64,000 nt of DNA. Origin: Bacteroidia bacterium. Lineage in GTDB: Bacteria > Bacteroidota > Bacteroidia > B-17B0 > Aurantibacillaceae. Under the pieces are notes generated by a model. It saw nothing but the letters and a program-made list of their open reading frames with translations, was not told the DNA's origin and did no database searches. A program made the position numbers and the translations under genes. The DNA lies in assembly GCA_016787705.1 (NCBI GenBank), contig JAEUTP010000018.1, positions 1 to 64,000 of the forward strand, given 5' to 3'. Shown in pieces: positions 44,077 to 64,000 of the stretch (positions are counted from its first letter, which is position 1; each line of letters begins with the position of its first letter).

Positions 44077-44152
44077 GGTGCCTTAGCTCAGTCGGTAGAG
44101 CAAAGGACTGAAAATCCTTGTGTCCCTGGTTCGATTCCTGGAGGCACCACCA
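44077..44152 (+). tRNA. tRNA-Phe (GAA)
   Basis: 76 nt with encoded CCA. It folds as a cloverleaf: acceptor GGTGCCT/AGGCACC, D arm GCTC/GAGC, anticodon loop CTGAAAA with anticodon GAA at 44110-44112, and T arm CCTGG/CCTGG with TTCGATT. The 3' end adjoins the serine recombinase gene, whose frame runs antisense through it, so the tRNA is the probable attachment site of the element to its right. Confidence 0.95.
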
Positions 44153-45713
44153 AGTGGGGGATTTCAAACAATACGTTTGAATCCCCCATTTTTATTTCCG
44201 CCATATCCCGCACCAATTGGGCGATGTACGTGAACACTGAATTTACTTTGGTGGTTCGACACTGGTTAATTTTTTTGCTGTAGCGGATTCCTTCAGGAAA
44301 GAGTAAAAATTGAAGCAATTGTTTGTCCTTATAAGCCATTAAACCCCACGCTTTCGGGAGGTTAGCGGCAAAGTCCATTATAATATTTACGCAATTTTCA
44401 AGGTTCGACACCCTCTTTTGGGTTTTTACAAGGCTCTTCTCTAAATCCAGCCTTTCCTGCTTTAATTTCTCGGTAAACTTATTGAAAATTTCGAGGGTTA
44501 ATTCCTCATTTATTAGCCTTTCCTCTAACCTTTCGAGTTTCTTTTCAATCTCCACAATTTGGCGTTTTAAGCCCTCCTTTGACTGATCCTTTTCTTTATG
44601 CTCCTTATTATAGTTTGCCATGATTTGTTTCGCCACAAAGCCCCTAATTGTGTCATTTCCGACCAAGCTAAAGGAAGCTAATACCTTCTCGAAAAAGGTG
44701 TGGATTTCCCTTGCACTTTTGTTATTACCGCACCCCTTGGTGTTGCACTTGTAATAAGGGAGGTTTTTGGCTTTTACCACATACCCCCTCATAAAGGAGC
44801 CGCAATGATCGCACCGTAAGAATCGCTTTAATGGAATATGCTCCGATTCTTCGTGGCATGAATAGCCGTGTTTATTCTCGCTTAAAATTTCATTCACTTT
44901 CAGGAACACTTCTTTTGAAACCATTTTCTCCTGATTACCTTCTACCAATTGTCCTTTCAAAGCTGAATGCGCCATAAGCCCACAATAAAAAGGGTTTCTG
45001 AAATATCCCGATAATCGCTTCTCGTCAAGTTTCAATCCGAGGGCTTCCAATCGTTCAGAAATTTCTGTATGCGTTATTCGTTCATTTGCTTTCCAATGAA
45101 ATGCCCTTTGTAAAAGTTTGCCTTTTTCATTCAGTACAATTTTACGTTTACCGTTCTCTTTAATTTCATCGTATCCGTAAGGTGCTTTATGACACCACTC
45201 TCCCTTCATTAAAGCTTCACGAACTCCTGCCATGCATTTTTCTCTTCGCAATTGATTATCATACTGCGAAAAAATAATCTGAATGTTTTGTTGAAAGTCT
45301 CCACTCGATGTTGAAGCGTCTCCGGGTTGCGTTACCGCAACAAGATAAATTCCTTGTTCTCGAAGTTGATCCTTAATGTAAATTGCGTTCGCACCTGATC
45401 GAGAAAATCGGTCAACGCTGTAAACAATAATGTAGGAGATTTTCTCTCTACTCTTTTTTACAAATGAAAGCATCCGGTTAAACTCTTTACGTTCATCCGT
45501 TTTTGCACTTTCATAAGTTCCACCAAAAACACCCATCACAGAATATTGATGCTTCTTAGCGTATTCTTCACACGCCTTTCGTTGCGTCTCCAAACTGTAA
45601 CCCAGTTCTTGTTCTTTACTTGATACCCTTGTGTAAATAACACAATTGTTCGTTCGCTTAAGGTGCTGCGATTTCCCTTTTGCAAACTGATCGAATAAAA
45701 CTAATCCTTTCAT
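44088..45713 (-). CDS. Large serine recombinase (integrase), C-terminal end reading into tRNA-Phe
   Basis: 541 residues. The N-terminal resolvase domain has the catalytic Ser in YTRVSSKEQ (S31), followed by YSVDRFSRSG and the recombinase domain with RNPFYCGLM. A zinc-ribbon with CDHCGSFMRG and YKCNTKGCG, then a coiled coil (LKRQIVEIEKKLERLEERL) complete the large serine integrase type. The last about 21 residues (PPGIEPGTQGFSVLCSTD) are the antisense translation of tRNA-Phe and 44155-44188 is its terminator, so the natural protein end before insertion was probably different. It overlaps the upstream small gene by 4 bp. Confidence 0.88.
   Translation of the reverse strand: MKGLVLFDQFAKGKSQHLKRTNNCVIYTRVSSKEQELGYSLETQRKACEEYAKKHQYSVMGVFGGTYESAKTDERKEFNRMLSFVKKSREKISYIIVYSVDRFSRSGANAIYIKDQLREQGIYLVAVTQPGDASTSSGDFQQNIQIIFSQYDNQLRREKCMAGVREALMKGEWCHKAPYGYDEIKENGKRKIVLNEKGKLLQRAFHWKANERITHTEISERLEALGLKLDEKRLSGYFRNPFYCGLMAHSALKGQLVEGNQEKMVSKEVFLKVNEILSENKHGYSCHEESEHIPLKRFLRCDHCGSFMRGYVVKAKNLPYYKCNTKGCGNNKSAREIHTFFEKVLASFSLVGNDTIRGFVAKQIMANYNKEHKEKDQSKEGLKRQIVEIEKKLERLEERLINEELTLEIFNKFTEKLKQERLDLEKSLVKTQKRVSNLENCVNIIMDFAANLPKAWGLMAYKDKQLLQFLLFPEGIRYSKKINQCRTTKVNSVFTYIAQLVRDMAEIKMGDSNVLFEIPHLVVPPGIEPGTQGFSVLCSTD
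44155..44193 (+). terminator. Terminator after tRNA-Phe
   Basis: Stem TGGGGGATTTCAAAC (44155-44169) and GTTTGAATCCCCCA (44175-44188) with one bulged T and a 5-nt loop, then a T run. It starts 3 nt after the tRNA and lies inside the 3' end of the recombinase frame. Confidence 0.75.
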
Positions 45714-45952
45714 GCTGCATTTCTTATTGGTTTATAATTGTTATTTGTTTCATTGTCTTCAATCACAATTTCAGGTTCGTATTGCTTTTTATAGAGGGAA
45801 TAAAAAACCGTACTTACTGTTCTAACAAAATCAACAACTTCCTTCGCTTGTTCTTCGCTGAGGTTTTTAAATTCCTCTATAGCTAAAACTTCTTCTACCG
45901 TTATATCATGCTCTCTCGCCTCGTCACTGTAGGCATTTCCAACCTTCTCCAT
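45710..45952 (-). CDS. Small protein of unknown function paired with the recombinase
   Basis: 80 residues from the ATG at 45952; a longer frame to 46051 needs a GTG start and is less likely. Acidic and helical (ITVEEVLAIEEFKNLSEEQAKEVVDFVRT). It overlaps the recombinase start by 4 bp, so it may be an accessory (for example a directionality factor), but no family is recognised. Confidence 0.55.
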   Translation of the reverse strand: MEKVGNAYSDEAREHDITVEEVLAIEEFKNLSEEQAKEVVDFVRTVSTVFYSLYKKQYEPEIVIEDNETNNNYKPIRNAA

Positions 45953-46242
45953 TTTTGTTATTATTGAAAAATTACGTACACTTTTGGGAACGTGGTAGCG
46001 ATTCCAACTATCTTTTTTTGAGGGGAAAAAATCAAGGGAATAAACTTGCACGTCTAAAAACTAAATGCCATACTCAATGGCAAATACCACTAAGAATCGT
46101 CTATTTTCGGGGGATATGGGGTTAAACAACACACAGGGCAAAACTATGCCCGTGTATAAGGATGGTTTCTTGGTTTGGAAAATATTTTGAATTTCTTGAA
46201 AAAGATTTTTAATCCTTTTTAATCTTTTGAATTCAAATAAAA
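45953..46242. other. Non-coding gap at the left end of the element
   Basis: About 290 bp with no convincing gene. It includes an alternative GTG extension of the upstream gene, an AT-rich region, and a 10-bp tandem repeat (TTTTTAATCC / TTTTTAATCT) at about 46206-46225. The promoter of the recombinase pair is expected here but no clear -7 box was found. Confidence 0.5.
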
Positions 46243-46286: not shown

Positions 46287-46931
46287 CTACTTTTTTTCTT
46301 TTAATCCCTGCCAAACTAAGACTGCTAATACTGCTCCCAAAGTCGGAGCTGAAAGATAAACCCATAAATGCTCTAAGTGTCCCGAAACAACTGCCGGGCT
46401 TAACGAACGAATTGGATTCATGGATGCTCCGCAAATCGGACCAGCGAACATAGCTTCCAATAATACTACTGAGCCGATTGCTATTCCTGCAAACATACCT
46501 TGCTCTTTACTTCCTTTAGCAACATGAATTATTGTGAACATTAAAAGGAACGTAAGTATCAGTTCCAAAATAAATGATTGCATGGCTGTTCCGGCAGGTG
46601 ATGTTGCCCCAAGTGTAGCATTGTTCGGAAACAAATAATGCAAAGTAAAGCTTGCTAAAAACGCACCGATTCCTTGACTGATAATGTATGGCAATATCTC
46701 TTTAGCAGGGAAAACTTTAGCTACCCAAAATGCAATGGTAACAGCAGGATTCAAATGCGCCCCTGAAATATCACCAACTGTATAAATCATAGCTGCAACG
46801 ATTAACCCAAATGTAGCAGCAATCCCTGCATGGGTAATTGCACCGACTGATTCCTGATTAATTATAATAGCTCCTGTCCCACAAAAGATAAGAGCAAATG
46901 TTCCTATTATTTCCGCTATATATTTTCTCAT
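46287..46931 (-). CDS. aqpS: Aquaglyceroporin-like MIP channel (AqpS-type candidate)
   Basis: 214 residues with six membrane helices. The first NPA box is intact (GAHLNPAVTI, residues 61-63). The second is NPI (GASMNPIRSL, 172-174) rather than NPA. MIP channels of ars operons (AqpS) release arsenite produced by arsenate reductase. The gene is the last of the metalloid operon, next to the arsenate reductase, and no ArsB or Acr3 pump is present, so a role in arsenite exit is a reasonable inference. A general water or glycerol channel is the alternative. Confidence 0.8.
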   Translation of the reverse strand: MRKYIAEIIGTFALIFCGTGAIIINQESVGAITHAGIAATFGLIVAAMIYTVGDISGAHLNPAVTIAFWVAKVFPAKEILPYIISQGIGAFLASFTLHYLFPNNATLGATSPAGTAMQSFILELILTFLLMFTIIHVAKGSKEQGMFAGIAIGSVVLLEAMFAGPICGASMNPIRSLSPAVVSGHLEHLWVYLSAPTLGAVLAVLVWQGLKEKK

Positions 46932-46932
46932 T

Positions 46933-47661
46933 TTATTCTTTCTTTTTTCTAAAGTCTAAATGACTGATCCATGTCAACTGAAAATAGTATTGGTTAAACC
47001 AACTTTGTTTTCCAATGTTCCAAGTAACGTATAAAATTCCGGCTTCTATTTTATTCTTTTCATTTAATTTTTTGCCTAATGCTGCGTAAGCCCAATTCTC
47101 GCCATAAACTGCACCTGCATTCTCAAACGTATTAAAGAAGGCTTCTTCATAGGCTGTGAAGTAAAGTTTCTCATTTATTGGTACATCCATTCCAATCAGA
47201 TATCTCACACGGTGCGTGAATGGTGTTTCATTCGTAAATCTGTTATGAACGAATCTACCATCGAAACGTAAACGATGTGTCAGGTTTACTTTCTTAATAG
47301 AATGCTTGTACTTAGCCTGAACATAAAACCTATTTTCGTTTACATAGTTATCGTAAACCACATTAGCTCTCTGATAAACATAGCTACCTGTTAAAGAAAA
47401 CTTACTGTTTACATTATAGCTCAAAGCTTGCTCTGAGTAAAACAGATGGAAGTCGGAATCTTTAGAAACATCAGGCTTGTCGAAATTTACAAGTGGAAAA
47501 GCAGCGAAATAATATAAACTATAATCAAGCTTGTTACTTATTGTTCCCGAATGGTCGATGGTTGGGAATACACCGCCAACATTAATGCTTTGAGCATTTA
47601 TACTTGGCGCAGATAATAGAACAGCTAAGACCGAAACAAACCAATGTTTTCTCAGATTCAT
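46933..47661 (-). CDS. DUF2490-like outer membrane protein
   Basis: 242 residues with a signal peptide (1-23) and a beta-barrel-like pattern rich in aromatic residues (FYVQAKYKHSIKK, HRLRFDGRFVHNRF, YFTAYEEAFFN). It matches the general pattern of DUF2490, often annotated as hypothetical barrel proteins. It sits between the arsenate reductase and the aquaporin genes, which suggests outer-membrane passage, but there is no direct evidence. Confidence 0.65.
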   Translation of the reverse strand: MNLRKHWFVSVLAVLLSAPSINAQSINVGGVFPTIDHSGTISNKLDYSLYYFAAFPLVNFDKPDVSKDSDFHLFYSEQALSYNVNSKFSLTGSYVYQRANVVYDNYVNENRFYVQAKYKHSIKKVNLTHRLRFDGRFVHNRFTNETPFTHRVRYLIGMDVPINEKLYFTAYEEAFFNTFENAGAVYGENWAYAALGKKLNEKNKIEAGILYVTWNIGKQSWFNQYYFQLTWISHLDFRKKKE

Positions 47662-47664
47662 AAA

Positions 47665-48276
47665 TTACAGTTTCGAGAATACATAAAGTGTTTCTAATGC
47701 AATCTGTTTGCATCTTTCATCATACTTAGCATCTTGTTGTGGTGTATTATCAAATGCTTTAGGATCATCGTATGTAGTTCCAATACGCAATTCAACACCC
47801 GGAATAAAAGGACAATTCTCCTCTGCATCACTACAGGTCATTATTGCAGCAAATTCCTTCTGTGGATTTTTAGCATCATCATAGGTTTTAGAAAAACAAA
47901 CACTCGGAGTTTCATTATCATCATGGAATACATGATAGGTCGTGTTTTTTTCAATATTGATTGGTTTGATAGTGAAGCCAACTCTTTTTAGTGAGTTGAT
48001 CGCATTAATATTAAATGCTGTTGCCTCTGTCCCACCTGAATAAGTGTTAACATTTTTAATTCCATAGTAACTTGCAGCCACATGCGCCCAAACTTGCCCA
48101 AAATGACTCCTTCGGGAATTATGGGTACAGATGTAAACTAAATTAATTGGACTACCCATTACTCGTTTTTTAGCAATGTACTGTGTGATTTTTTCTAAAA
48201 TCTCTTTTCTGTTTTCAGGAATGGATTTAAACTCTTTTGTTAAACCATCCACATACGTTTTAATGTTTGGATACAT
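47665..48276 (-). CDS. arsC: Arsenate reductase, thioredoxin-coupled (LMW-PTP-like)
   Basis: 203 residues. The CX5R P-loop is CTHNSRR (C50 to R56), and the two resolving Cys are C148 and C155 in MTCSDAEENCP, spaced 7 apart as in the Staphylococcus enzyme. It reduces As(V) to As(III) by a three-Cys cascade recycled by thioredoxin. The N-terminal ~40 residues are a family extension. Its place after an ArsR-type regulator and before the aquaporin supports the arsenic role. Confidence 0.87.
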   Translation of the reverse strand: MYPNIKTYVDGLTKEFKSIPENRKEILEKITQYIAKKRVMGSPINLVYICTHNSRRSHFGQVWAHVAASYYGIKNVNTYSGGTEATAFNINAINSLKRVGFTIKPINIEKNTTYHVFHDDNETPSVCFSKTYDDAKNPQKEFAAIMTCSDAEENCPFIPGVELRIGTTYDDPKAFDNTPQQDAKYDERCKQIALETLYVFSKL

Positions 48277-48282
48277 AATTTA

Positions 48283-48615
48283 TTATTTACAACAATTCTT
48301 TTTATTAGTATAAGATTCAAATAAAACTCCTAAATATTCTTTTGCTTCTGCCCATGCTTTTTCATCAATACAATAGCAAACCGATTTTCCTGTGATATCT
48401 CCCTTAATCAATCCAACATCTTTTAATTCCTTTAAATGCTGTGAAACGGTGCTTTGTGATAATGGCAGTTCATCTACAATATCTCCGCAAACACACGCTT
48501 CTTTTTTTACTAATAATCGTAAAATTGCGATTCGTGCTGGATGCCCCAAGGCTTTTGCATACTTGGCGATCTTGTTATCTTTTATAGTAAACTCTTCAGT
48601 TTTTGCTGTTCCCAT
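48283..48615 (-). CDS. arsR: ArsR family metalloregulator
   Basis: 110 residues. The alpha-3 metal site CVCGD (C41, C43) and the winged-helix motif LSQSTVSQHLKELKDVGLI are the classic ArsR/SmtB pattern, giving As(III)/Sb(III)-responsive repression. Two further Cys are at the C-terminus (NCC). It starts 2 bp after the upstream HTH gene and is followed by arsC, so it probably controls this subunit of the operon. Confidence 0.87.
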   Translation of the reverse strand: MGTAKTEEFTIKDNKIAKYAKALGHPARIAILRLLVKKEACVCGDIVDELPLSQSTVSQHLKELKDVGLIKGDITGKSVCYCIDEKAWAEAKEYLGVLFESYTNKKNCCK

Positions 48616-48617
48616 AA

Positions 48618-48977
48618 TTATTCATTTAAGCAATTGCCTTTATTAGCATCAATATTTCCACGATTACGATTAATGCGCTCATAAAACTCATCGAACTGTT
48701 TTTTTAGTTCATCCAGTTTTTGATAATTTAGACAATAAGATAACTTCTTTGAACTAAGATTCCCGTTGACTAACTCAAACTTTTTTAAATACTTCAGGTT
48801 CATGCCAACGGTAAATTTTGACATACCTTCAAGGTCAATAAAGTCATTTTTAATACAAGTGCCATCACAAGCCAACTTTTCGAGCAGAGCAATGCGTGAG
48901 GGATTACTCAACGCTCCGCATAATCGTGCTAAGTCCGAATGGCGATTGTTAGTAATTGGCCTGCTTTCGTCTTTCAT
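48618..48977 (-). CDS. Divergent ArsR-like winged helix regulator
   Basis: 119 residues. It contains LARLCGALSNPSRIALLEKLACDGTCIKNDF and a winged-helix core (SKFTVGMNLKYLKKFELVNG), close to ArsR/SmtB but with an unusual CDGTC pair. A perfect 10-bp inverted repeat (48977-49004) overlaps its start codon, a likely operator for itself or for the adjacent ArsR. The two consecutive regulators (119 and 110 residues) are unusual. Confidence 0.7.
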   Translation of the reverse strand: MKDESRPITNNRHSDLARLCGALSNPSRIALLEKLACDGTCIKNDFIDLEGMSKFTVGMNLKYLKKFELVNGNLSSKKLSYCLNYQKLDELKKQFDEFYERINRNRGNIDANKGNCLNE

Positions 48978-49004
48978 TTAATATCGCAATAATACGATAT
49001 TAAA
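48977..49004 (-). promoter_or_regulatory. Operator-like inverted repeat within the metalloid operon
   Basis: TTTAATATCG (48977-48986) and CGATATTAAA (48995-49004) are perfectly complementary with an 8-nt spacer. It fills the 28-bp gap between the FmdE gene stop and the HTH regulator start, so it probably controls an internal transcript starting here. Confidence 0.75.
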
Positions 49005-49658
49005 TTATTTCGGCAAACAGTTTTGTAACTTTTTATTCAACACATCGGTTTTGAGGAAGTTACCTTTTAGAACAGGTAACCATTTGTAGTTCTTAATTTC
49101 CTCAATGATAAAGAGGTCTTGGGGATTTTTGGAAAGTAAAAAACTTGAAAATTCGCTTTCCAATTTTCTGAGGCTATCAATCCCACAGGCATCCAATTCG
49201 CCTTTGGTAGCTAATCTACCCAAACTATCAATTGCAGTTGGCATCAAGCCGGGTTTTAGCTTAATTCCGTAAGCTTTTTCATTGTCTATTCGCTGAACAA
49301 TAAATTGATATTTGATGCTATCAGAAACATAATAGGTGTTGTATTGGTATCTTGCTCCTGTCATAAAAATGGCAATATCAGTTAAACAGGGAGATGGTTT
49401 ACTTACAATTCGATTATTGGTTCTATCGATGATGCTATCGGGATATAATTTATAAAGCCCCTCTTTTAATCCTAAAAAACCTACGACCAAACCATCACAT
49501 AAATGCCCATGTAATTTAACAGCATCGTTTAAAGTAATGGTTTGTACGTTTTGCAATCTGCCTTTAGAAAAGTCAGTATCTAAAACTTTAATGGAGGGAT
49601 TTTGAGCCAATAAAATATTCGCAAATAAAACAAGTAGTATTAAGTTAAACCATTTCAT
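49005..49658 (-). CDS. Exported FmdE-domain protein
   Basis: 217 residues with a signal peptide (1-19). It contains LHGHLCDGLVVG (H50, H52, C54), the metal-binding motif of the FmdE family (formylmethanofuran dehydrogenase subunit E-like), and CLTDIAIFMTG. Beyond that the role is unknown; location between an ArsG-like permease and metalloregulators suggests metal or metalloid handling. Its stop is next to the operator at 48977-49004. Confidence 0.75.
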   Translation of the reverse strand: MKWFNLILLVLFANILLAQNPSIKVLDTDFSKGRLQNVQTITLNDAVKLHGHLCDGLVVGFLGLKEGLYKLYPDSIIDRTNNRIVSKPSPCLTDIAIFMTGARYQYNTYYVSDSIKYQFIVQRIDNEKAYGIKLKPGLMPTAIDSLGRLATKGELDACGIDSLRKLESEFSSFLLSKNPQDLFIIEEIKNYKWLPVLKGNFLKTDVLNKKLQNCLPK

Positions 49659-50374
49659 TATTCGATCACTTTTAAATAAATTAAGATATAGTACAACCCT
49701 GTTAATACAAACAATAACCCGGCAATGATCCGCATTACCTTTTCAGTTTTTTGAATCGCTTTAAAATATTTTCCTAATTGCGAAATACTAAAAGCAATAA
49801 TACCTGTAAAGAACATTACCAATGTTCCGGCTCCGAGTGCATAGAATAACGGATACATAATTCCTGCTCCACCTTTGATGCTCATTGGTATTAACGCCCC
49901 AAAATATAATGCTCCGCTATAAGGACAAAACGCCATTGCGAATAATGCGCCTAATAAAAATGCACCAAGCAATCCTTTTTCTTTAAACTTATCGCTCCAC
50001 TTTTCTGTAAAATTTCCTTTCCCTAAAAAATTAAGTTTAATTACATTCAACATCACCAAGCCTACAAGAACCATAATCGGTCCGACATACTTTTCTCCAT
50101 TACCCTGAAAAAATTTAGCAACATGAAATTTACTTGCACCGAAAGTGATAATAAGCGCAATGCTCGTATAAGTAAAAGCTAAACCTAAAGTGTAAAGCAA
50201 GCCACTCAACAAAACCTTTTTTCTTCCTTCAGAATTATTCTTTGAAATAAAAGCAATGGCGGTAATATTTGTGGCTAAAGGGCAAGGGCTAATTGCTGTA
50301 AGTATCCCTAACAGTAAAGCAGAAACTAAAGGAAAGTTGCTGCTATTCATCCATTGGTAAAGTGTCTCGGTCAT
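49658..50374 (-). CDS. arsG: CcdA/DsbD-like membrane protein, ArsG-type permease candidate
   Basis: 238 residues with six to seven membrane helices. The DsbD/CcdA thiol motifs are seen as TAISPCPLATN and MAFCPYSGALYFGALIP, each with a single membrane-embedded Cys-Pro. The order with the ArsF-like protein upstream and the regulators downstream matches arsEFG-type arrangements reported for aromatic arsenical resistance. Whether it transports electrons (as CcdA) or arsenicals is not decidable here. Confidence 0.72.
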   Translation of the reverse strand: MTETLYQWMNSSNFPLVSALLLGILTAISPCPLATNITAIAFISKNNSEGRKKVLLSGLLYTLGLAFTYTSIALIITFGASKFHVAKFFQGNGEKYVGPIMVLVGLVMLNVIKLNFLGKGNFTEKWSDKFKEKGLLGAFLLGALFAMAFCPYSGALYFGALIPMSIKGGAGIMYPLFYALGAGTLVMFFTGIIAFSISQLGKYFKAIQKTEKVMRIIAGLLFVLTGLYYILIYLKVIE

Positions 50375-50823
50375 TATTTCAGAGCAGCGTCTATCATTGT
50401 TTTTAACTCGGAAATAAATACTTCATTGTCGTTCGCTTTCTCAAAAGCAAAATCACTCCAATCGATAATACTGTCTTTTCCATTTACTACTTTGTTAATC
50501 ATTAAAGCAGTTCCGGTTGCTTGAAATTTCTCGGCTAACTTTTCATTTTTTTCATCATCCACATCAACTATTGAGAAAACAATTGAGCTATCTTTCAATT
50601 GGGTTGCAAAGTATTTATCCAATGCTGTTTTAGTATTTGCTTTCATGTTTTTGCAGGTCTCACATTGGCGAGTACCATGAAAACAATACACCTCTAAGCG
50701 ATTTTGTTTGGCAACGGAGGTCGTTGCTTCAACTTTAGCAGTTTCATTCTCTACTTTTGGCGCAGAGTTACAAGCTGTGAATAGCCCAGTAGCTATGGTA
50801 AGAATAATTAAAAGTTGTTTCAT
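50374..50823 (-). CDS. arsF: ArsF-like thioredoxin-fold lipoprotein
   Basis: 149 residues. A lipoprotein signal ends LFTAC (C18). The mature part has CFHGTRQCETCKNM (C47, C54, C57), a thioredoxin-like active site with an extra Cys, followed by FSIVDVDDEKNEKLAEKFQATGTALM, matching the ArsF family pattern. It lies immediately next to the ArsG-like gene (1-bp overlap) and presumably delivers reducing power or arsenicals to it in the periplasm. Confidence 0.72.
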   Translation of the reverse strand: MKQLLIILTIATGLFTACNSAPKVENETAKVEATTSVAKQNRLEVYCFHGTRQCETCKNMKANTKTALDKYFATQLKDSSIVFSIVDVDDEKNEKLAEKFQATGTALMINKVVNGKDSIIDWSDFAFEKANDNEVFISELKTMIDAALK

Positions 50824-50824
50824 C

Positions 50825-51271
50825 TTAATTTGCGTATTTTAAAATTAAACCTATTTGTCCTGCGTGATATGCAGTATGAGAAATGATACGAGATAAAGCT
50901 TCTGCTTTAGTTACTGTTCCAAATTCAGCGGTTGTTACGTTGCTACTCCAGTCTGCATCTGTTTGTTTTAAAATGGCTTGTTCCAATACCGAAGCGGCTT
51001 CATTCAAACCTTCTAATTCTGCTTGCAGATTGGTGAACTTTCCGGTGTCATGTATTCCTTTTCCAATGGTTGATGCCATCACTCTAATATCCAAACCGAA
51101 TACATTTTTGGCAAACAAGTGTTCCACTTCGTTAATGTGACGGAGCAAAAATCCAACCGAGTTTGAATTCGGATGCAATTTTTTAGTAAGATCACTTTCC
51201 TTAATGTTAGGCAGTTGATTGGTTAAACGGGTTCTCCCCATTTTAAACATCTTTAATAATTCTTGAGTCAT
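50825..51271 (-). CDS. DinB-family protein
   Basis: 148 residues starting at the ATG at 51271. A longer frame (to 51481) is an artefact: its first 70 residues lie antisense in another frame of the rhodanese gene. DinB-like metal-binding His are seen in LLRHINEVEH and HTAYHAGQIGLIL. DinB/YfiT proteins are thiol- or metal-dependent transferases; a role in metalloid-thiol conjugation is possible but unproven. Confidence 0.75.
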   Translation of the reverse strand: MTQELLKMFKMGRTRLTNQLPNIKESDLTKKLHPNSNSVGFLLRHINEVEHLFAKNVFGLDIRVMASTIGKGIHDTGKFTNLQAELEGLNEAASVLEQAILKQTDADWSSNVTTAEFGTVTKAEALSRIISHTAYHAGQIGLILKYAN

Positions 51272-51275
51272 AGTC

Positions 51276-51878
51276 TTATTTTTTATCGGTAGGTTTTTTA
51301 CATGTACCATCAGGGTTACAATCTTTGCTGTTTGGATTTTCACAACAAGCTTTTTTCTCAGCAGGTTTCTTGCAAGTGCCATCAGGATTACAATCTTTAC
51401 TGTTTGGGTTTTCGCAACAAGCTTTCTTTTCTCCTCCTGCAAGGGTTGGTAAACCTTTCTCACTCCAAGCATCCATGCCACCTTCCATGTTGGCTACGTT
51501 TTCAAATCCTTTTCCTTTTAATAATTCATAGGCTTGAGAACTTCTACCACCTTTTTTACAAACAACAATTACTTGTTTATCTTTTGGTACTTCAGCTAAT
51601 CTTGATTCTAATTCTCCTAATGGAATATTTTTGATATCCTTTACATCATATGCCAATTCAGCTAATTCATCAGGCTCCCGTACATCAATAATTAATGCGC
51701 CTTCTTTACTTAAAGCCAATGCTTCATCCACGGTGATGTCAGCTTTAGGGCTTTTAAAATAGGTTGAAGTAGAATCCTTTTTATTGGCCTCTGTACTGGC
51801 AGTTTCAGTTTGATTGTTATTACAAGCTACTAAAAATATACTTGCTACTGTTGACAGAATTAGAATTGTTTTTTTCAT
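51276..51878 (-). CDS. Rhodanese lipoprotein with Cys-rich tandem-repeat tail
   Basis: 200 residues. Lipoprotein signal peptide with lipobox VAC (C19). The rhodanese domain spans about 45-145 with catalytic C107 in VVCKKGGRSSQ. The C-terminus has two near-identical 24-residue repeats (151-174, 175-198) with CCENPNSKDCNPDGTC, four Cys each, followed by PTDKK. The repeats are visible in the DNA too. Sulfur transfer or metalloid binding on the outer face of the envelope is a plausible function; it is encoded in the metalloid operon. Confidence 0.85.
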   Translation of the reverse strand: MKKTILILSTVASIFLVACNNNQTETASTEANKKDSTSTYFKSPKADITVDEALALSKEGALIIDVREPDELAELAYDVKDIKNIPLGELESRLAEVPKDKQVIVVCKKGGRSSQAYELLKGKGFENVANMEGGMDAWSEKGLPTLAGGEKKACCENPNSKDCNPDGTCKKPAEKKACCENPNSKDCNPDGTCKKPTDKK

Positions 51879-51888
51879 GCTTTGATTA

Positions 51889-52866
51889 TTATAAGATTAA
51901 GTTGAATAAATATCCTGAAATGATAATACACGCTGTTACTACTCCAAAGAAGATAAACAGCATTTTGGTTGACATCACTTTTTTAAGCAGCAATCCTTCG
52001 GGGATTGATAAGCCAACCACCGCCATTGAAAATGCAATAGCAGTTCCCAATGGTATACCTTTTTGAACTAATACTTGCATAACAGGCAAAACACCTGCTG
52101 CGTTGCTATACATTGGAACGCCTAAAATCACGGCAATAGGAACAGCGAATGGATTTTCTTTGCTAATGTATTCTTCAAAAAATCCTGTTGGGATAAAACC
52201 ATGCATTAAACCGCCAATGGCAATTCCAATAAGAATATAAAGTGAAACGCCTTTAACAATGCCTAATGCTTCTTTTCCAATTTCAGGTAAGCGTTGGAAG
52301 AATGTTTTTTTCTCCGCTTCAAATTCTTCATCAGCTATTTGTTTATTTTCTAAGATCTTCTTTACCCAATCGGTTAGCAAATGCTCCAAATTCAATTTAC
52401 CTAAAATGTAGCCTGCAATCATTGAAAGAACTATTCCACTAATTACATACACGATGGTTGTTTTCCAACCGAACATGCCAATGAACATAGCAACCGAAAC
52501 TGCATCAACCAGTGGCGATGAAATCAAGAAAGCTAAAGTAACACCTAATGGAATACCGCCTTTTACAAAGCCTATGAATAAAGGAACAGAAGAGCAAGAA
52601 CAAAACGGTGTAATAGTTCCAAAGAATGAGGCTAAGAAATAATCCAAGCCATACCAGTTGCGTTTGGTTAAAAAATTACGAACTCTGTCAATAGGAAAAT
52701 AAGAGTTTACAATTCCCATCACGAAGGTTACTAATCCTAACAGAATAAAAATCTTAATCGTATCAAACACAAAGAAGTTTAGCGCATCGCCGACTTTTGA
52801 ACCATGCGTTAATCCGAAAAGGGAATAAATTAACCAATCAGCGAAATGCTGTAACCAATCAAACAT
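51889..52866 (-). CDS. arsP: ArsP-like permease
   Basis: 325 residues with eight or so membrane segments. The motif TPFCSCSSVPLFIGF (residues 87-101) is typical of the permease family (DUF318) to which the trivalent organoarsenical efflux permease ArsP belongs. Gene neighbours support export of an arsenical, but other members move thiol-linked metals, so the substrate is inferred. Confidence 0.8.
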   Translation of the reverse strand: MFDWLQHFADWLIYSLFGLTHGSKVGDALNFFVFDTIKIFILLGLVTFVMGIVNSYFPIDRVRNFLTKRNWYGLDYFLASFFGTITPFCSCSSVPLFIGFVKGGIPLGVTLAFLISSPLVDAVSVAMFIGMFGWKTTIVYVISGIVLSMIAGYILGKLNLEHLLTDWVKKILENKQIADEEFEAEKKTFFQRLPEIGKEALGIVKGVSLYILIGIAIGGLMHGFIPTGFFEEYISKENPFAVPIAVILGVPMYSNAAGVLPVMQVLVQKGIPLGTAIAFSMAVVGLSIPEGLLLKKVMSTKMLFIFFGVVTACIIISGYLFNLIL

Positions 52867-52878
52867 AAGCTTCTAATA

Positions 52879-53367
52879 TTAGCAACAGCCAGGCTTGCTG
52901 CAATCGCAGCTATTACCCAAATCTGCCATGTTTACTTTTTGTTTTTCATTTGTAGGGGTGCAGCATGATGATTGTGAACTGTCATTTGTATCACAACATC
53001 CGCTGCTTTGCGTGTTATTTCCTAATACAGATGAAACATCACCTTTTGTAGGAAATCCTTTTGTTGCCCAACGGATCATACCATGTTCCATATTTACCAC
53101 ATTGGTGTAACCATGATTCACTAAAAAGCCCGCTGCTCTCAAACTTCTGCCTCCACTACGACAAACCATTACCACTTCTTTATCTTTTGGAATTTCATTA
53201 AAGCGTTCTTCAAATTCGCTTAAAGGAATGTTGATGATGTTTGGTACATCATAAGCTAATTGTGCCACTTCATCCTTTTCACGTACATCAACTAATAATG
53301 CACCGTTTTTAACCCAACCTTGTGTAGTAGTTGGGCATATTTCTTTTACTAATGTTTGCTTTTCCAT
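52879..53367 (-). CDS. Cytosolic rhodanese with Cys-rich tail
   Basis: 162 residues without a signal peptide. The rhodanese domain has catalytic C69 in VVMVCRSGGRSLRAAG. The tail (about 110-162) has Cys pairs: SSGCCDT, SSCCTPT, SCDCSKPGCC. It is paralogous to the lipoprotein rhodanese further down the operon, but the tail sequences are not repeats of each other. It probably serves in sulfide or metalloid binding in the cytosol. Confidence 0.83.
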   Translation of the reverse strand: MEKQTLVKEICPTTTQGWVKNGALLVDVREKDEVAQLAYDVPNIINIPLSEFEERFNEIPKDKEVVMVCRSGGRSLRAAGFLVNHGYTNVVNMEHGMIRWATKGFPTKGDVSSVLGNNTQSSGCCDTNDSSQSSCCTPTNEKQKVNMADLGNSCDCSKPGCC

Positions 53368-53377
53368 TGTTGTAATT

Positions 53378-53617
53378 TTAAGCTGTTAATAATGTTTTTA
53401 TTTCGTTGATGTCTGCAACTCTTCCTTTTATTTTAATTACATCATCAACCATTAAAACAGGAGTTGTAAGCACATTGTATTTCATCATCTCTTCAATGTC
53501 TTCAATTTTTGTTACATCTGCTTCAATGCCTAATTGTTTTACAGCTTCTAATACATTGTTGTAGGTGGTTTTACATTTTGCACAACCCGGTCCTAATACT
53601 TTTACTTGCTTTTTCAT
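53378..53617 (-). CDS. Small thioredoxin-family redox-active disulfide protein
   Basis: 79 residues with CAKC (C12, C15) and the fold of redox-active disulfide protein 2 (KVLGPGCAKCKTTYNNV, TTPVLMVDDVIKIKGRV). Such small thioredoxins are common in ars and permease operons and may recycle the arsenate reductase. A palindromic site at 53668-53683 lies upstream. Confidence 0.85.
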   Translation of the reverse strand: MKKQVKVLGPGCAKCKTTYNNVLEAVKQLGIEADVTKIEDIEEMMKYNVLTTPVLMVDDVIKIKGRVADINEIKTLLTA

Positions 53618-53667
53618 ATCTTATTTTATGTTTTGTTTCCGTTGTTGAATTTACTTATTGTTCGTAG

Positions 53668-53683
53668 TTCGTAAGATGACGAA
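53668..53683 (-). promoter_or_regulatory. Second ArsR-type operator upstream of the thioredoxin gene
   Basis: TTCGT (53668-53672), 6-nt spacer and ACGAA (53679-53683), 16 bp in total, nearly identical to the core of the dyad at 54016-54033. It lies in the gap between arsR and the thioredoxin-like gene. Confidence 0.6.
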
Positions 53684-53701
53684 TATCATGGTCAAATTTT
53701 T

Positions 53702-54001
53702 TTAATCAAAGAATCCTATCATCAACCCTTTTGCTAAGTTCCAATTCTCTTTATTAATACAATATTTTGTCTTAGGAGGATCAATTTCACCTTGTATGAG
53801 TCCTGCTTCTCTTAATACTTTTAAATGCTGCGACAGGGTACTATTGGCTATGGGTAATACTTCTGCCATGTCTCCATGAAAACAACAACTTTGTTTTGAG
53901 AGTTGTTGAAGGATGGCTACCCTTACTGGATGCCCAAGTGCATTGCTGAACTTAGCAATTAACTCTTGTTTATCGGTGTATTTTTTTATTTCGGTTGGCA
54001 T
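53702..54001 (-). CDS. arsR: ArsR family regulator at the head of the metalloid operon
   Basis: 99 residues. It has SCCFHGDM (C39, C40) in the metal-binding helix and IANSTLSQHLKVLREAGLI, the recognition helix. Its start is 14 bp from a perfect 18-bp dyad (54016-54033) that overlaps the -7 box, so autoregulation is likely. It is the first gene of the operon. Confidence 0.88.
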   Translation of the reverse strand: MPTEIKKYTDKQELIAKFSNALGHPVRVAILQQLSKQSCCFHGDMAEVLPIANSTLSQHLKVLREAGLIQGEIDPPKTKYCINKENWNLAKGLMIGFFD

Positions 54002-54178: not shown

Positions 54179-56950
54179 TTGAATCAAAACCCTGAACAAA
54201 TAGCAAGAGATAATATCGACAAGCAGTTGAAGGCTTGTGGGTGGATTATTCAGGGTAAGAAGGAAATTAATCTTGGCGCAGGGCTTGGCGTAGCTGTTCG
54301 TGAATATCAAACTGATATCGGGCCAGCCGATTACGTACTGTTTTTAGATAAAAAGCCTGTAGGAATCATTGAAGCCAAGAGAGAGGAAGAAGGTCACCGC
54401 TTAACTACTGTTGAAGACCAATCTACAGATTACGCAAGCAGCAAATTAAAATATTTAAACAACGATCCACTCCCCTTTGTTTATGAAAGCACCGGAGAGA
54501 TAACTCGCTTTACAGATTATACTGATCCCAAACCACGCTCAAGAGAAGTATTTACATTTCATCGTCCGGAAACCTTTAAGGACTGGATTAAGAAAGCCAA
54601 ATCACTTAGAAAAAGATTACTTGATTTACCTGTACTTCCCATTGAAGGGCTGCGTGAATGTCAGATCAACGCAATAAATAATCTTGAAGTTTCTTTAAAG
54701 GAAAACCGACCTCGTGCCTTAATTCAAATGGCAACAGGATCAGGGAAAACATTTACTGCTATTACATTTATATATCGCCTCTTAAAATATGCTCAGGCAA
54801 AAAGAGTTTTATTTTTAGTTGATACAAAAAACCTCGGTGAACAGGCGGAACAAGAGTTTATGGCTTTTCAGCCAAATGATGATAATAGAAAGTTTACTGA
54901 ACTTTACAATGTACAACGATTGAAAAACAGTTACGTTGCTACTGACAGTCAAGTTTGTATTAGTACGATACAAAGATTATACTCAATTCTTAAAGGAACA
55001 GAATTAGATGAGACTTCGGAAACAGAAAATCCGAATGAAAAGAAGTTTGAACCAAAGGAAGCAGTTCCGGTTGGTTATAATGAAAAAGTACCAATAGAGT
55101 TTTTTGACTTCATTGTGATTGATGAATGCCATAGAAGCATTTACAACCTATGGAAGCAAGTATTAGATTACTTTGATGGTTTTTTAATAGGTTTAACTGC
55201 AACACCTGACAATAGAACATTCGGATTCTTTAATCAGAATGTTGTGAGCGAGTACACTCATGAACAAGCTGTGATTGATGGTGTAAATGTTGGTAGTGAT
55301 GTTTATCAGATTGAAACAGAAATCACAAAAAAAGGCGGTGTAATTTGGAAGGGGCAGTACGTTGACCATCGAGAGAAATTATCTCGAAAAAAAAGATGGC
55401 AACAAGTAGATGAGGATACTGCTTATTCTAATAAGCAGTTGGATGATGCGGTTGTGAATCCAAATCAGATAAGATTGATTATAAAAACCTTTAAAGATCA
55501 TCTGCCGGAAATGTTTCCGGAACGATTGGATAAGGATGGCAAATATGAAGTTCCAAAAACACTCATTTTTGCTAAAACAGATTCTCATGCAGACGACATT
55601 ATACAAATTGTGAGGGAAGAATTTGCAGAAGAAAATAAATTCTGTAAAAAAATCACTTACAATGCCGAAGATCCAAAATCAGTTCTTGCTCAATTCCGCA
55701 ATGATTACTATCCTCGGATAGCGGTAACGGTAGATATGATTGCTACCGGAACTGATGTAAAGCCTTTGGAATGTTTGCTTTTTATGCGTGATGTGAAGAG
55801 TAAGAACTACTTTGAGCAAATGAAAGGTCGTGGCACAAGAACAGTTGATTTAGACACTCTAAAAAAGGTCACTCCAAGTGCTAAATACACGAAAGATCAC
55901 TTTGTAATTGTAGATGCAATTGGAGTTACAAAAAGTTTAAAGACAGATAGTCGACCACTTGAGAAAAAGCCATCTGTTCCTCTAAAAGATTTATTAGGAG
56001 CTATTGCAGTTGGGGTGCGTGAAGAGGAAGTTTTCACTTCTGTTGCGAATAGACTACTCCGATTAGAGAAACAGTTAACTGAAAAAGAGAAAGCTGCGTT
56101 CTCGGATAAAACAAAAGGAAGAACAATTACCCAAGTTGCGAAGGCTTTACTTAATGCTTATAATCCTGATACGATTGAAGATTTAGAAAACGATGTAAGA
56201 AAAAAGCTTGTTGGTAAATCTATTGAAGAAATTAATAATGAAATTGAATCGAGAAAATCTCAATTGATCGAGAGTGCAGCCGAAGTTTTTACGGGTGAAC
56301 TTAATTTGTTTATTGATAATGTTAGAAAAGCACACGAGCAAATTATAGACATTGTAAATCCGGATAAGCTTGTGAATGTTGGTTGGGCTAAAGATAGCAC
56401 AGAGCAGGCGAATGAGTTAATCAAGTCGTTCTCTGATTGGTTATTTGCACATAAAGATGAAATTACGGCTTTACAAATTTTCTATAATCAACCTTTCAGA
56501 AGAAGGGAATTGACATTTGACATGATCAAAGAGGTCTTGGAAAAATTGAAGTTAGATAAACCAACCCTTGCTCCAATGCGCCTGTGGTCAGCCTATGAGC
56601 AATTAGGTAAGACAAATGGTAGTGCAAAGAATGAACTTATTGCCATTGTTTCCCTGATTCGAAAGGTCATGGATATTGATGAAGTGCTTACTCCATATGA
56701 TAAAACGGTAGACAAGAATTTTCAAGATTGGGTTTTCAAAAAACAAGCCGGTAATCTTAAGTTTACTGAAGAGCAAATGAATTGGCTACGGACAATTAAA
56801 GATTACATAGCCAATAGTTTCCATATTGAAAAGGATGACTTTGATTTAAACCCTTTCAATGCAATGGGTGGACTTGGCAAGCTATGGAGTTTATTTGGAG
56901 ATAAAACAGATGATATTATTAACGAATTAAATGAAGTATTGGCAGCATAA
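54179..56950 (+). CDS. hsdR: Type I restriction endonuclease R subunit
   Basis: 923 residues. An N-terminal PD-(D/E)xK nuclease domain has D51 and E65-A-K67 (in GPADYVLFLDKKPVGIIEAKR). The motor follows with Walker A ATGSGKT (residues 185-191), DECH (315-318), and motif QMKGRGTRT. The C-terminal part (about 640-923) is helical and contacts the methyltransferase. Start is TTG at 54179; no ATG is better placed. It begins the defence operon and its stop TAA overlaps the next start codon by one base. HsdR translocates DNA and cuts it when the HsdS target is unmethylated. Confidence 0.92.
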   Translation: MNQNPEQIARDNIDKQLKACGWIIQGKKEINLGAGLGVAVREYQTDIGPADYVLFLDKKPVGIIEAKREEEGHRLTTVEDQSTDYASSKLKYLNNDPLPFVYESTGEITRFTDYTDPKPRSREVFTFHRPETFKDWIKKAKSLRKRLLDLPVLPIEGLRECQINAINNLEVSLKENRPRALIQMATGSGKTFTAITFIYRLLKYAQAKRVLFLVDTKNLGEQAEQEFMAFQPNDDNRKFTELYNVQRLKNSYVATDSQVCISTIQRLYSILKGTELDETSETENPNEKKFEPKEAVPVGYNEKVPIEFFDFIVIDECHRSIYNLWKQVLDYFDGFLIGLTATPDNRTFGFFNQNVVSEYTHEQAVIDGVNVGSDVYQIETEITKKGGVIWKGQYVDHREKLSRKKRWQQVDEDTAYSNKQLDDAVVNPNQIRLIIKTFKDHLPEMFPERLDKDGKYEVPKTLIFAKTDSHADDIIQIVREEFAEENKFCKKITYNAEDPKSVLAQFRNDYYPRIAVTVDMIATGTDVKPLECLLFMRDVKSKNYFEQMKGRGTRTVDLDTLKKVTPSAKYTKDHFVIVDAIGVTKSLKTDSRPLEKKPSVPLKDLLGAIAVGVREEEVFTSVANRLLRLEKQLTEKEKAAFSDKTKGRTITQVAKALLNAYNPDTIEDLENDVRKKLVGKSIEEINNEIESRKSQLIESAAEVFTGELNLFIDNVRKAHEQIIDIVNPDKLVNVGWAKDSTEQANELIKSFSDWLFAHKDEITALQIFYNQPFRRRELTFDMIKEVLEKLKLDKPTLAPMRLWSAYEQLGKTNGSAKNELIAIVSLIRKVMDIDEVLTPYDKTVDKNFQDWVFKKQAGNLKFTEEQMNWLRTIKDYIANSFHIEKDDFDLNPFNAMGGLGKLWSLFGDKTDDIINELNEVLAA

Positions 56951-58947
56951 TGAGCGGTTTATTTTTAAATTTTTACCAAGTAGATTTATCTACCAAATCA
57001 ATCGATTTGGAGTATTTGAATTACGCAGATTATGAATCAAAAGAGAAATTCAAGGAACTCAGGGACAATAACAAAGACAAATACTTTCATCGTTCTGATG
57101 ACAAAATAGTTTATTGGAATAAGAATAATGCTTCTTCTGATAGCCTATCTCAAAACAGAATGAGCATTACGGACGAGGATGATCCTAAAGTGTTTTCCAA
57201 AATAATTGAAGATTCAATAATTACTTTTTTAAGATCAAAGCCCGAATACAATATTTTTAAGAATAAGCACGCCAGTACTTGGGACATTATTTCTAAAAAA
57301 GATTTATTACAAGGAAAAATTGATGGATTGGTTGTAAATCGTATTGTTCATCTATCTTCTTACTTTTTTTTGAAGGATGAAACATTAATATTCGGTTTTA
57401 CCCTTTCTACATCCCTTAAAAACTCATTTACTTGGACAAGAGAAGACTTTATTAAGAATGGTATCGATGTTCTTGGATTGAAAGGCGATGCTCAAAAAAT
57501 ATTTTCTAATAAGCAGAGTCTTAAACGATTTCTTGAATCACGAGGCGCATCTTCAACTTATGACACTGCTATAAAACAAGAAAACTCAAGAGAGAAAAGT
57601 TTTCAGGTCATTGATGGTTTTTATAATTGGATTGCAAAAAAGAAGGATGAAATAATCCTTCCTTCCGGTATTCAAATTAACAGTATCGTTAAAAGATATA
57701 TTCCATTTGAAAATAATTTAATTAAATCCGAGATACTTCCAAAACCTGAAAGATATTTTTACAGTAACAAAACCAACACTAACGGATTGAAGTATTATAA
57801 TGATATGGTTAAGAATTATAAACCATATTCATTAGAACTTTATCAGAATAAACGAATAAATTTCGGAATAATTTGTCCTACAGAATTTCAAGGCGAAACG
57901 GAAGCATATCTTAAACGAATTGAAGCCAAGCTTAAAGAGACTTTTCATTTTAATGATATCGGATTCACTCTTATAACGATTGCAAGTAAGGGTTTGGAAG
58001 ATTATAAAAAGGCAGTTTATGACGACAATATCTTGAAGTCAGATTTAATTTTTGTTATCGTTTCAAAAGATCATGAAAAGCTTGATGAAAGGAACTCGCC
58101 ATATCATGTGTGCAAGGCTAAATTGATAGGGAACGGTATTCCAACTCAGGACATACAGGTGGAAACAATTAGACAGAATACATCTGATTTTACCATGACG
58201 AATATCTGTCTTAATACTTATGCAAAGCTTGGCGGTACTGCTTGGACTATTGAAAAGGAAGAAAAAATCAGGGAAGAATTGGTTGTTGGTATTGGTTCAA
58301 CAACTGGAGATAACGGTGAACATATCTTAGGAATTGCACAGGTCTTTCATAATGACGGAAGATATATCATGGGCGACTGCGCTCCCCTTTCTACTTTCGA
58401 CAACTACGCTACAAACCTGGAGAATCATTTATTCAACACTTTGAAACCGATTATTGATGGAATAAAAAAGGACGAAACCTTTAGATTAATTTTTCATCTC
58501 TATAAATCAGCAAGTGAGAAATATGAAATAACAGCCATTAACAATTTAAAAAATAGGCTTTCGGGGTATAATTTTGAATTCGCCTTAGTTCATTTAGGTT
58601 ATGGTCACAACTTCAGAATGTACTACAACGATGGGAAGTATGATACCACCCAAGGAACATACGTCCAATTAAGCAAGCATTCCGCTTTACTAAACTTTGT
58701 AGCTAAAAGCGATTTGCCATTGAAAATTGATTTAGATAAGAGATCAACTTTTACAAGTTTGTTTTACATTGCAAAACAGGTCTATTGGTTTTCTCACCTT
58801 TCTCACAGAAGTTATATGCCTTCAAAACGAACTGTTACAATAATGTATCCATCGTTAATGGCTAAAATGACTGAAGAATTAAAGAAAGTAGATGGTTGGG
58901 ATTATGACAGATTAAAAGCGGTAAGCGAGAAATTATGGTTTATTTAA
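56950..58947 (+). CDS. Argonaute-like (pAgo) PIWI protein, catalytically inactive
   Basis: 665 residues. The C-terminal half is a MID-PIWI module: the 5'-end binding residues follow the Y-K-Q-K pattern (Y385, K389, Q400, K426) in PYHVCKAKLIGNGIPTQ and NTYAKLGGTAW, spaced 4, 11 and 26 residues as in known PIWI proteins. In the PIWI core the first catalytic Asp (normally GID) is GIG (447-449), and HLYK (516-519) replaces the second Asp segment, so slicing is not expected. PTIMYPSLMA-like C-terminus (TVTIMYPSLMA) fits. The N-terminal ~300 residues hold a reduced N/PAZ-like region. It overlaps hsdR by 1 bp and the nuclease gene by 13 bp. The family binds guide nucleic acid and triggers a partner effector. 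Confidence 0.83.
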   Translation: MSGLFLNFYQVDLSTKSIDLEYLNYADYESKEKFKELRDNNKDKYFHRSDDKIVYWNKNNASSDSLSQNRMSITDEDDPKVFSKIIEDSIITFLRSKPEYNIFKNKHASTWDIISKKDLLQGKIDGLVVNRIVHLSSYFFLKDETLIFGFTLSTSLKNSFTWTREDFIKNGIDVLGLKGDAQKIFSNKQSLKRFLESRGASSTYDTAIKQENSREKSFQVIDGFYNWIAKKKDEIILPSGIQINSIVKRYIPFENNLIKSEILPKPERYFYSNKTNTNGLKYYNDMVKNYKPYSLELYQNKRINFGIICPTEFQGETEAYLKRIEAKLKETFHFNDIGFTLITIASKGLEDYKKAVYDDNILKSDLIFVIVSKDHEKLDERNSPYHVCKAKLIGNGIPTQDIQVETIRQNTSDFTMTNICLNTYAKLGGTAWTIEKEEKIREELVVGIGSTTGDNGEHILGIAQVFHNDGRYIMGDCAPLSTFDNYATNLENHLFNTLKPIIDGIKKDETFRLIFHLYKSASEKYEITAINNLKNRLSGYNFEFALVHLGYGHNFRMYYNDGKYDTTQGTYVQLSKHSALLNFVAKSDLPLKIDLDKRSTFTSLFYIAKQVYWFSHLSHRSYMPSKRTVTIMYPSLMAKMTEELKKVDGWDYDRLKAVSEKLWFI

Positions 58948-62507: not shown

Positions 62508-62664
62508 TAGGATTAGCAATTGTTTCAATTTTATTGAGACACCATGCACAGTGGGCATGGTTGCTGTAAAGCTACTCTACATCATTTTGATGTACAACAC
62601 CCTTCGGGGCTGTACATCAGAACGCGCGCGTTCATTCATGTAACTCGTAATCCTATTTATGACC
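62500..62664 (+). ncRNA. Retron msr-msd RNA
   Basis: About 165 nt. The ends pair: a1 GGTCATAATAGGATTA (62500-62515) with a2 TAATCCTATTTATGACC (62648-62664), 16 pairs and one bulge. TTAGC at 62513-62517 matches the branching-guanosine motif, with G62516 as candidate. Two msr hairpins follow: TGTTTCAAT/ATTGAGACA (62521-62541) and CCATGC/GCATGG (62542-62560). The msd part has a long hairpin with a TTCG loop (62589-62618) and a GC-rich palindrome GAACGCGCGCGTTC (62620-62633). It immediately precedes the RT gene. Confidence 0.82.
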
Positions 62665-63759: not shown

Positions 63760-63761
63760 TT

Positions 63762-64000
63762 ATGAAAGAAATATCGAACAATACAAATTCAATAGTATCA
63801 AAAGTATGGGCATTTTGTAACACGTTGCGTGATGATGGTGTGGGTTATGGTGATTACTTGGAGCAGTTAACATATCTTCTGTTTCTAAAAATGGCGGATG
63901 AGTATAGCAAACCACCATACAACCGGAAACTTGAAATTCCAAAAAAATACAGTTGGGATTCCCTCACAGAAAAGAAAGGTGCTGAGTTAGAAGTTCATTA
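63762..64000 (+). CDS. hsdM: Type I restriction methyltransferase subunit (N-terminal part)
   Basis: The window ends after 79 codons. The N-terminus (YGDYLEQLTYLLFLKMADEY) is the typical HsdM N-terminal helix, and the gene starts 2 bp after the retron RT stop. The methyltransferase domain is outside the window. Its presence as the last gene supports the view that the retron and Argonaute genes are inserted in an otherwise complete R-S-M operon. Confidence 0.9.
   Translation, partial: MKEISNNTNSIVSKVWAFCNTLRDDGVGYGDYLEQLTYLLFLKMADEYSKPPYNRKLEIPKKYSWDSLTEKKGAELEVH

Follow-up and report, generated by a model that had tools for sequence, protein, structure and literature searches.

How does the gene of a large serine recombinase come to end inside an intact tRNA gene, and what becomes of the protein when it does? 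This question was raised by one locus in a window of 64,000 nucleotides, the whole stretch of DNA analyzed here, which derives from a draft genome of 4.5 Mb with its relatives among the Bacteroidota. The recombinase, hereafter the integrase (541 aa), is encoded on the minus strand at 44088..45713, and a tRNA-Phe (GAA) gene occupies 44077..44152 on the plus strand, with C74 at 44150 and its CCA end at 44150-44152. A Pfam-type domain search identified Resolvase, Recombinase, and Zn_ribbon_recom domains in the product; PF00239 was matched with E=1.2e-27, PF07508 and PF13408 both scored above the cut-off, and the Y-x-R-V-S motif was present, YTRVS being nearly invariant in the family. Matches in the PDB were restricted to the catalytic domain. 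Among the best matches in phage records, no relative of the integrase exceeded 26% identity, and IMG/VR yielded three relatives, all of them distant and all lacking a complete attP. An AlphaFold model of the relative L149 (542 aa, 35 sequences) had a mean pLDDT of 80 and was well folded to about residue 506, with long helices at 348-425, in keeping with the coiled coil of large serine recombinases; the tail was of low confidence, and the model therefore gives no hint of its role.

The initial annotation had placed the recombinase stop at 44088 inside tRNA-Phe, read the final residues as the tRNA on the other strand, and ascribed the residues ahead of them to the terminator hairpin. The ORF and tRNA coordinates confirmed the first point, the overlap amounting to 65 nt (44088-44152), and inspection of the sequence bore out the other two: the C-terminal residues VVPPGIEPGTQGFSVLCSTD are an antisense reading of tRNA-Phe, the source of the residues beyond LVV.P, and a hairpin and T-run at about 44153-44196 encode the residues immediately preceding this antisense tail. 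The tRNA itself is undamaged, its 3' CCA included, and element DNA starts at C75 (44151).

We then compared the two ends of the element. The earlier proposal of an insertion at the tRNA, with the end of the integrase exchanged for host sequence, gained support from the partner attR at G000:C16:4935-4939, which holds the displaced native tail (VGERSYYEVEDFHKILEFTGLIEPLTD). The core common to attL and attR is ACCAC (44146..44150, plus strand). To its left, the tRNA forms the B half of attL; to its right, the element-borne half of attP (P', 44151..44196, plus strand) consists of CA and AGTGGGGG... followed by the hairpin and T-run, serves as the new tRNA terminator, and also encodes the final element-derived residues of the integrase. 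In four relatives, the element-free tRNA-Phe reads GGYACCAC and then unrelated sequence without CCA, whereas occupied tRNA-Phe sites read GGCACCACCA and then hairpin and T-run. This comparison indicates that the element supplies the CA of the CCA end together with a new terminator. An element-free counterpart of exactly this site, with both flanks, was not found, and the attB of the window is inferred.

The G018 attR was found from the native right flank beside that element and reads ...CTTGGGACCAC, followed by a terminator like that of an empty tRNA-Phe; on the integrase strand, a frame in phase with the integrase is open ahead of the core (SGENANKFNEHLELILEFMGVLEHEPELWDQIKQP). Other right ends were located by a peptide search and then by a profile search for the orphan tail, and a tail of the same kind was present at 21 distinct right ends (G018, G035, the window's own, G030, G060, G072, and others). 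Two of these lie in the window genome, on contigs C13 and C16. The end of C24, the window's contig, overlaps the start of C16 by an exact 141 bp, and the DNA just downstream of the C16 attR recurs 8 kb beyond the G018 attR, in the tRNA-Phe flank. On the basis of these two observations, the window element measures about 39.4 kb, from 44151 to C16:4939, and extends past the window to C24:78739 and C16:4939. Pairs of attL and attR on the same contig were obtained for G035 (tRNA-Leu, 21.5 kb), G072 (tRNA-Val, about 19 kb), and G060 (tRNA-Phe, about 35 kb).

A downstream repeat of the tRNA 3' end, or a short core, had been suggested as a mark of the far end. Only the short core, about 5 bp (ACCAC), was recovered; no tRNA fragment was present at attR, and so small a part common to both ends is what is expected of a serine integrase. 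A search for a repeat of P' (CAAGTGGGGGATTTC) downstream on the same contig returned none, and a search of the own genome with the pattern CTTGGNNCCAC returned nothing but chance matches, because the window clade has a different P arm; the tail profile found the attR instead. The attR of the G017 element was not found within its own contig, and tRNA-Phe right flanks elsewhere (L042) were of limited use as guides to the far end, the synteny being only partial.

We consider it probable (roughly 0.82) that the integrase of this element of about 39 kb recombines an internal attP with tRNA 3' ends via the T-loop and in doing so swaps its own C-terminus. The anatomy, the attL/attR pairs, and the frames are seen in the sequence; the recombination activity is inferred. 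The attB would be the 3' end of the tRNA gene, with the crossover at about tRNA positions 71-72; the attP lies within the integrase gene, close to its 3' end. The zinc-ribbon domain would read the T-loop GTTCGA, which tRNA architecture sets 22 nt before C74, and since tRNAs in general and tmRNA share these features, a single enzyme could use many of them if the crossover dinucleotide matched. In the integrated state, the tRNA is intact with its CCA and terminator coming from the element, the native tail of about 30 residues is left orphaned at attR, and the integrase frame continues into antisense tRNA. Excision or the formation of tandem arrays would restore the native tail to the integrase. 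In the likeliest scenario, the enzyme acts on the circle with its full tail, and integration alters the swapped form; this too is inferred, as is any use of the tail swap as a switch.

To evaluate the orphan tail, we counted codon changes outside attP, starting at codon 12, which lies over 30 bp away from the core. Changes at codon positions 1/2/3 numbered 39/0/87 in group A, 3/3/31 in group B, and 44/31/96 in group C, whereas the corresponding counts just past the tail stop were 98/106/102, 37/29/47, and 85/87/93. Judged by these substitution patterns, the orphan tail evolves like a protein in the tested alignments, and the motif GE.SNF..DL.KI.EF is kept across distant hosts. An integrated element cannot translate the tail together with its integrase; therefore, selection must act where both are joined. 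One such joined state is shown by the tandem array L255 at tRNA-Glu, in which the second integrase reads in frame into the first element's tail. A joined state is also expected in the excised circle; none was seen, and the native-tail junctions that were found proved to be tandem arrays or unresolved contigs. L149 and L170 were considered as free circles and rejected, as they had no terminal overlap, and L170/L255 turned out to be a tandem array. Tandem accretion was also noted at tRNA-Phe (L261), and there, as at tRNA-Glu in L255, a second integrase or its remnant sits at the tail of the first element.

The function of the tail is nevertheless inferred, and the exchange may be a functionless by-product of an attP that happens to overlap the gene end, with the antisense tail merely tolerated. 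This remains a possibility to be reckoned with, for the enzyme fold seems complete ahead of the tail in the AlphaFold model, and antisense tails and stop positions vary widely among family members, which evidently tolerate many of both. What it leaves unexplained is that a tail untranslatable with the integrase in the integrated state keeps protein-like constraint outside attP and that its motif persists in distant hosts. The conservation could instead be purely that of DNA, the tail being part of attP or another binding site. The first ten tail codons do overlap the attP half-site, and their GTTCGA and CCCC runs are conserved as DNA; however, codons 12 onward change mainly at third positions and the constraint ends at the stop codon. 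A DNA-only origin of the conservation is thus largely contradicted already and has little left to recommend it.

We also weighed whether the recombinase merely hitch-hikes on islands that owe their position to homologous recombination or to a separate tyrosine integrase. The ends of tRNA genes are common tyrosine-integrase sites, and one relative (L045) has a tyrosine-type integrase gene beside its tRNA-Phe, but the element ends coincide with the end of the serine integrase gene in every case, and attR and attL share about 5 bp rather than the tDNA fragment usual for tyrosine islands (PMC4383910), which makes such passive carriage very improbable. Least credible of all is that the overlap is an annotation artefact in which the real integrase stops earlier and its frame enters the tRNA by accident: antisense tRNA frames frequently look open, yet no stop precedes the tRNA, the frame is equal across the family, and the native tails join in the same phase at the same core.

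We also investigated which targets the relatives of the integrase occupy. The window genome contains a second integrase copy, 97% identical, on tRNA-Arg(ACG), where the stop is a TAG supplied by that tRNA. We examined 60 relatives and 80 loci in named genomes (Chitinophaga, Sphingobacterium, Mucilaginibacter, Pedobacter, Taibaiella, Flavisolibacter, and MAGs), the genomes compared being mostly draft MAGs. The integrase overlapped a tRNA or tmRNA in 59 of the 80 Bacteroidota loci, and no tRNA could be called in 15 of the 80. The targets observed in the relatives were the 3' ends of tRNAs for Phe, Arg, Met (both kinds), Leu, Val, Ser, Glu, Ala, and Pro, and of tmRNA. In the 78 related integrases with a callable tRNA or tmRNA, the gene was convergent with it and the offset was nearly always equal, an arrangement far beyond chance. 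A strong hairpin directly followed the tRNA end at 77 of these 78 sites (median -21.4 kcal/mol vs -6.3 kcal/mol in shuffles), and the stems at occupied sites differed in sequence. Mapped onto a tree of these 78 integrases, the tRNA species shows at least 35 changes, compared with an average of 51 in shuffles, which indicates that target use is heritable yet often switched. A recombinase-tRNA order fixed in all genomes would have refuted the insertion; instead, 97%-identical copies lie at tRNA-Phe, tRNA-Arg, and tRNA-Met, and relatives have tRNA-Phe without the recombinase. The initial annotation missed this general targeting of tRNAs, along with the conservation of the lost tail and the position of attP within the gene.

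Two further observations were made among the relatives. Three of them (L002, L024, and L034; 40-44% identity) have no tRNA end and lie beside TCGACTCCGCTCGA-like palindromic repeats, perhaps another type of target. In L130 (strain SZAS-3), an extra GTACCAC between tRNA-Phe and the element forms a 7-bp duplication at attL and moves the integrase frame into a different antisense tail; this duplication is unaccounted for by the explanation that we favor and counts against it.

The geometry of the sites suggested how one enzyme might recognize so many genes. In tRNA genes, the T-loop GTTCGA begins 22 nt ahead of C74 (44129..44134, plus strand, in the window), a distance held constant by tRNA structure. 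In attP, GTTCGA(C) begins exactly 27 nt ahead of the core end in 23 of 23 sites, all 23 also having T at -26. In the LI integrase, the zinc-domain motif lies 5 bp nearer the center in attB than in attP (Rutherford et al., PMC3783163). The distal motif observed here is likewise 5 bp further out in attP (-27) than in attB (-22), meeting this serine-integrase criterion; given a crossover at tRNA positions 71-72, T falls at positions 17-18 in attB and 22-23 in attP. The agreement with the LI integrase argues that the zinc ribbon reads the T-loop, and 44129..44134 is accordingly proposed, on the model of PMC3783163, as the zinc-ribbon (ZD) motif of attB. In the absence of binding data, we infer that the zinc ribbon probably recognizes the universal T-loop GTTCGA.

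The crossover dinucleotide probably lies at tRNA positions 71-72 (CC at 44147-44148, plus strand), a position inferred from dinucleotide agreement and not proven. Integrase pairs at least 79% identical but located at different tRNAs agree at positions 71-72 (CC/CC, CT/CT), except for pairs with L008, in whose element both ends carry GT, its own attR included. Nearly all attL/attR pairs also agree there, the exceptions being G002 and the position-70 pattern of G030. A crossover at 70-71, which would give the most symmetric attP, was rejected, as the base at position 70 is not the same in attL as in attR for G035, G000, G018, and G072. The G030 pattern comes from two mini-elements that are 96% identical (L213/L214 at G030:C1 about 1921.6-1922.2k and L215 at G030:C1 about 3444.1-3444.8k). 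Located at tRNA-Met and tRNA-Arg, they carry a GIY-YIG-like ORF, identified by eye, and the tail end without an integrase; the terminator of tRNA-Met is copied at their left end, and each attR matches its local tRNA at position 70. This difference at position 70 is the pattern expected with a crossover further left, and it counts against the placement at 71-72.

Two more GTTCGA motifs (GGTTCGACA) lie on the plus strand inside the integrase gene, at 44254..44259 (codons C-R-T, +104 from C74) and at 44403..44408 (codons V-S-N-L, +253 from C74). The Arg486 codon was CGA in 98 of 100 integrases against a background of 17%, and the Ser436 codon was TCG in 97 of 99 against 13%; among all conserved codons in 101 integrases, these two showed the strongest non-random synonymous choice. 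Read on the tRNA strand, both codons give GGTTCGACA, in most integrases at +253 (Ser436) and +104 (Arg486) from C74. Judged by codon choice, the two motifs are conserved at the DNA level. Their spacing of 149 bp follows from conserved protein length and alone is no evidence. The likeliest role is accessory binding of the recombinase, which is unproven. A wider proposition, that a phylum-wide clade combines the T-loop as zinc-ribbon target, a tail switch set by integration, and internal GGTTCGACA accessory binding sites, in contrast to known serine integrases with their simple att sites, is put forward only tentatively.

Among the closest known parallels is DsiB, the serine recombinase of Dehalococcoides ssrA islands, which sits at tmRNA with an unclear stop (McMurdie et al. 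2011, PMC3146451) and whose gene, in its authors' view, is perhaps fully functional only on the circle (PMC3146451). In both systems, a serine recombinase (about 540 aa) is encoded next to an RNA gene at its 3' end, the recombinase gene ends over attL with a stop only outside the island, and islands occur in tandem; the sequences were not compared. DsiB is described as CcrB-like, is accompanied by a second small recombinase, DsiA, and uses a single target with a 20-bp ssrA direct repeat and mid T-loop insertion. The present family, by contrast, belongs to the Bacteroidota, uses many tRNAs and tmRNA with about 5 bp shared and a crossover near the acceptor end, and has neither a visible DsiA-like neighbor nor the conserved integration module of the DsiB islands, the adjacent gene being a 113-aa ORF without Pfam match. 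Its displaced integrase tail has also been identified and its conservation demonstrated.

The integrases of A118/LI, phiC31, and Bxb1 share the Resolvase, Recombinase, and zinc-ribbon domains, and in that of LI the distal motif is likewise displaced by 5 bp in attP relative to attB (PMC3783163); they act at protein-coding or intergenic sites, whereas the window integrase lies at a tRNA and its gene has two additional conserved GGTTCGACA motifs. In mycobacteriophage BPs, integration shortens the repressor by 33 residues and removes an ssrA-like tag (PMC4557955). There, as here, attP lies inside a gene whose product is altered at the C-terminus, but here the integrase itself is altered and its tail replaced by an antisense-tRNA tail. 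Multi-targeting large serine recombinases also use several chromosomal sites per enzyme (Durrant et al., PMC10083194); we found no mention of tRNA in that paper, and the sites of the window family differ in sharing tRNA T-arm geometry. Islands of tyrosine integrases in tDNA differ in that the window integrase has serine domains and its element no displaced tDNA fragment at the far end. Serine integrases have been stated not to target tRNA genes (PMC4383910), and the literature searched, which was limited to open-licence papers, contained no account of T-loop geometry as a means of targeting many tRNAs. What appears to be new is the range of tRNAs used, the geometry of the T-loop, the internal motifs, and the tail, both its identification and its conservation; a large serine integrase island as such is known.

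The clade appears to target tRNA genes across the Bacteroidota through one invariant of tRNA architecture, and T-loop targeting would account for the ability of a single enzyme to locate sites that are safe and always present in nearly every host. The half-recognized oddity of the unclear dsiB stop becomes testable as a protein switch set by integration, natural attP/attB pairs are available for testing the 5-bp zinc-motif model, and the family could be a source of integration tools for which most genomes already contain sites.

The 113-aa partner ORF (45710..46051, minus strand) overlaps the integrase start and had no Pfam or PHROG match. An ORF placed in a similar manner is present in the G017 element and in the G018 element (L062:3381-3725), and toward the right end of the latter (L062, about 18.9-19.2 kb) a similar short ORF was seen by eye. 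We infer that it is a candidate directionality factor or accessory protein. Beyond it, the minus strand at 46287..54001 carries an arsenic/metal-like set comprising a MIP channel, ArsR-type regulators, an ArsP_1 permease, and a DsbD_2 protein. The plus strand at 54179..64000 carries a type I restriction operon, inside which lie pAgo and helical REase genes and the retron III-A genes (PRTase, RT). Three defence systems, namely type I restriction, a class II pAgo with a DpnII/helical-REase pair, and retron III-A, thus form one operon-like run at 54179-63759. The other elements that we looked at also bear defence systems: a type I system and an E1-E2-like gene are present in the G018 element, and DrmB in L255. 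After its defence genes, the window element has a further module of an amidase, a Dam-like methylase, and conserved unknown ORFs, noted in L037 (C24:67070-78739) and L211:1-2286, as well as in L210 and L067. It is 70-95% alike in the G017 element, its DNA is about 73% alike on C13, and it looks like a virus-like or particle module with no recognizable capsid.
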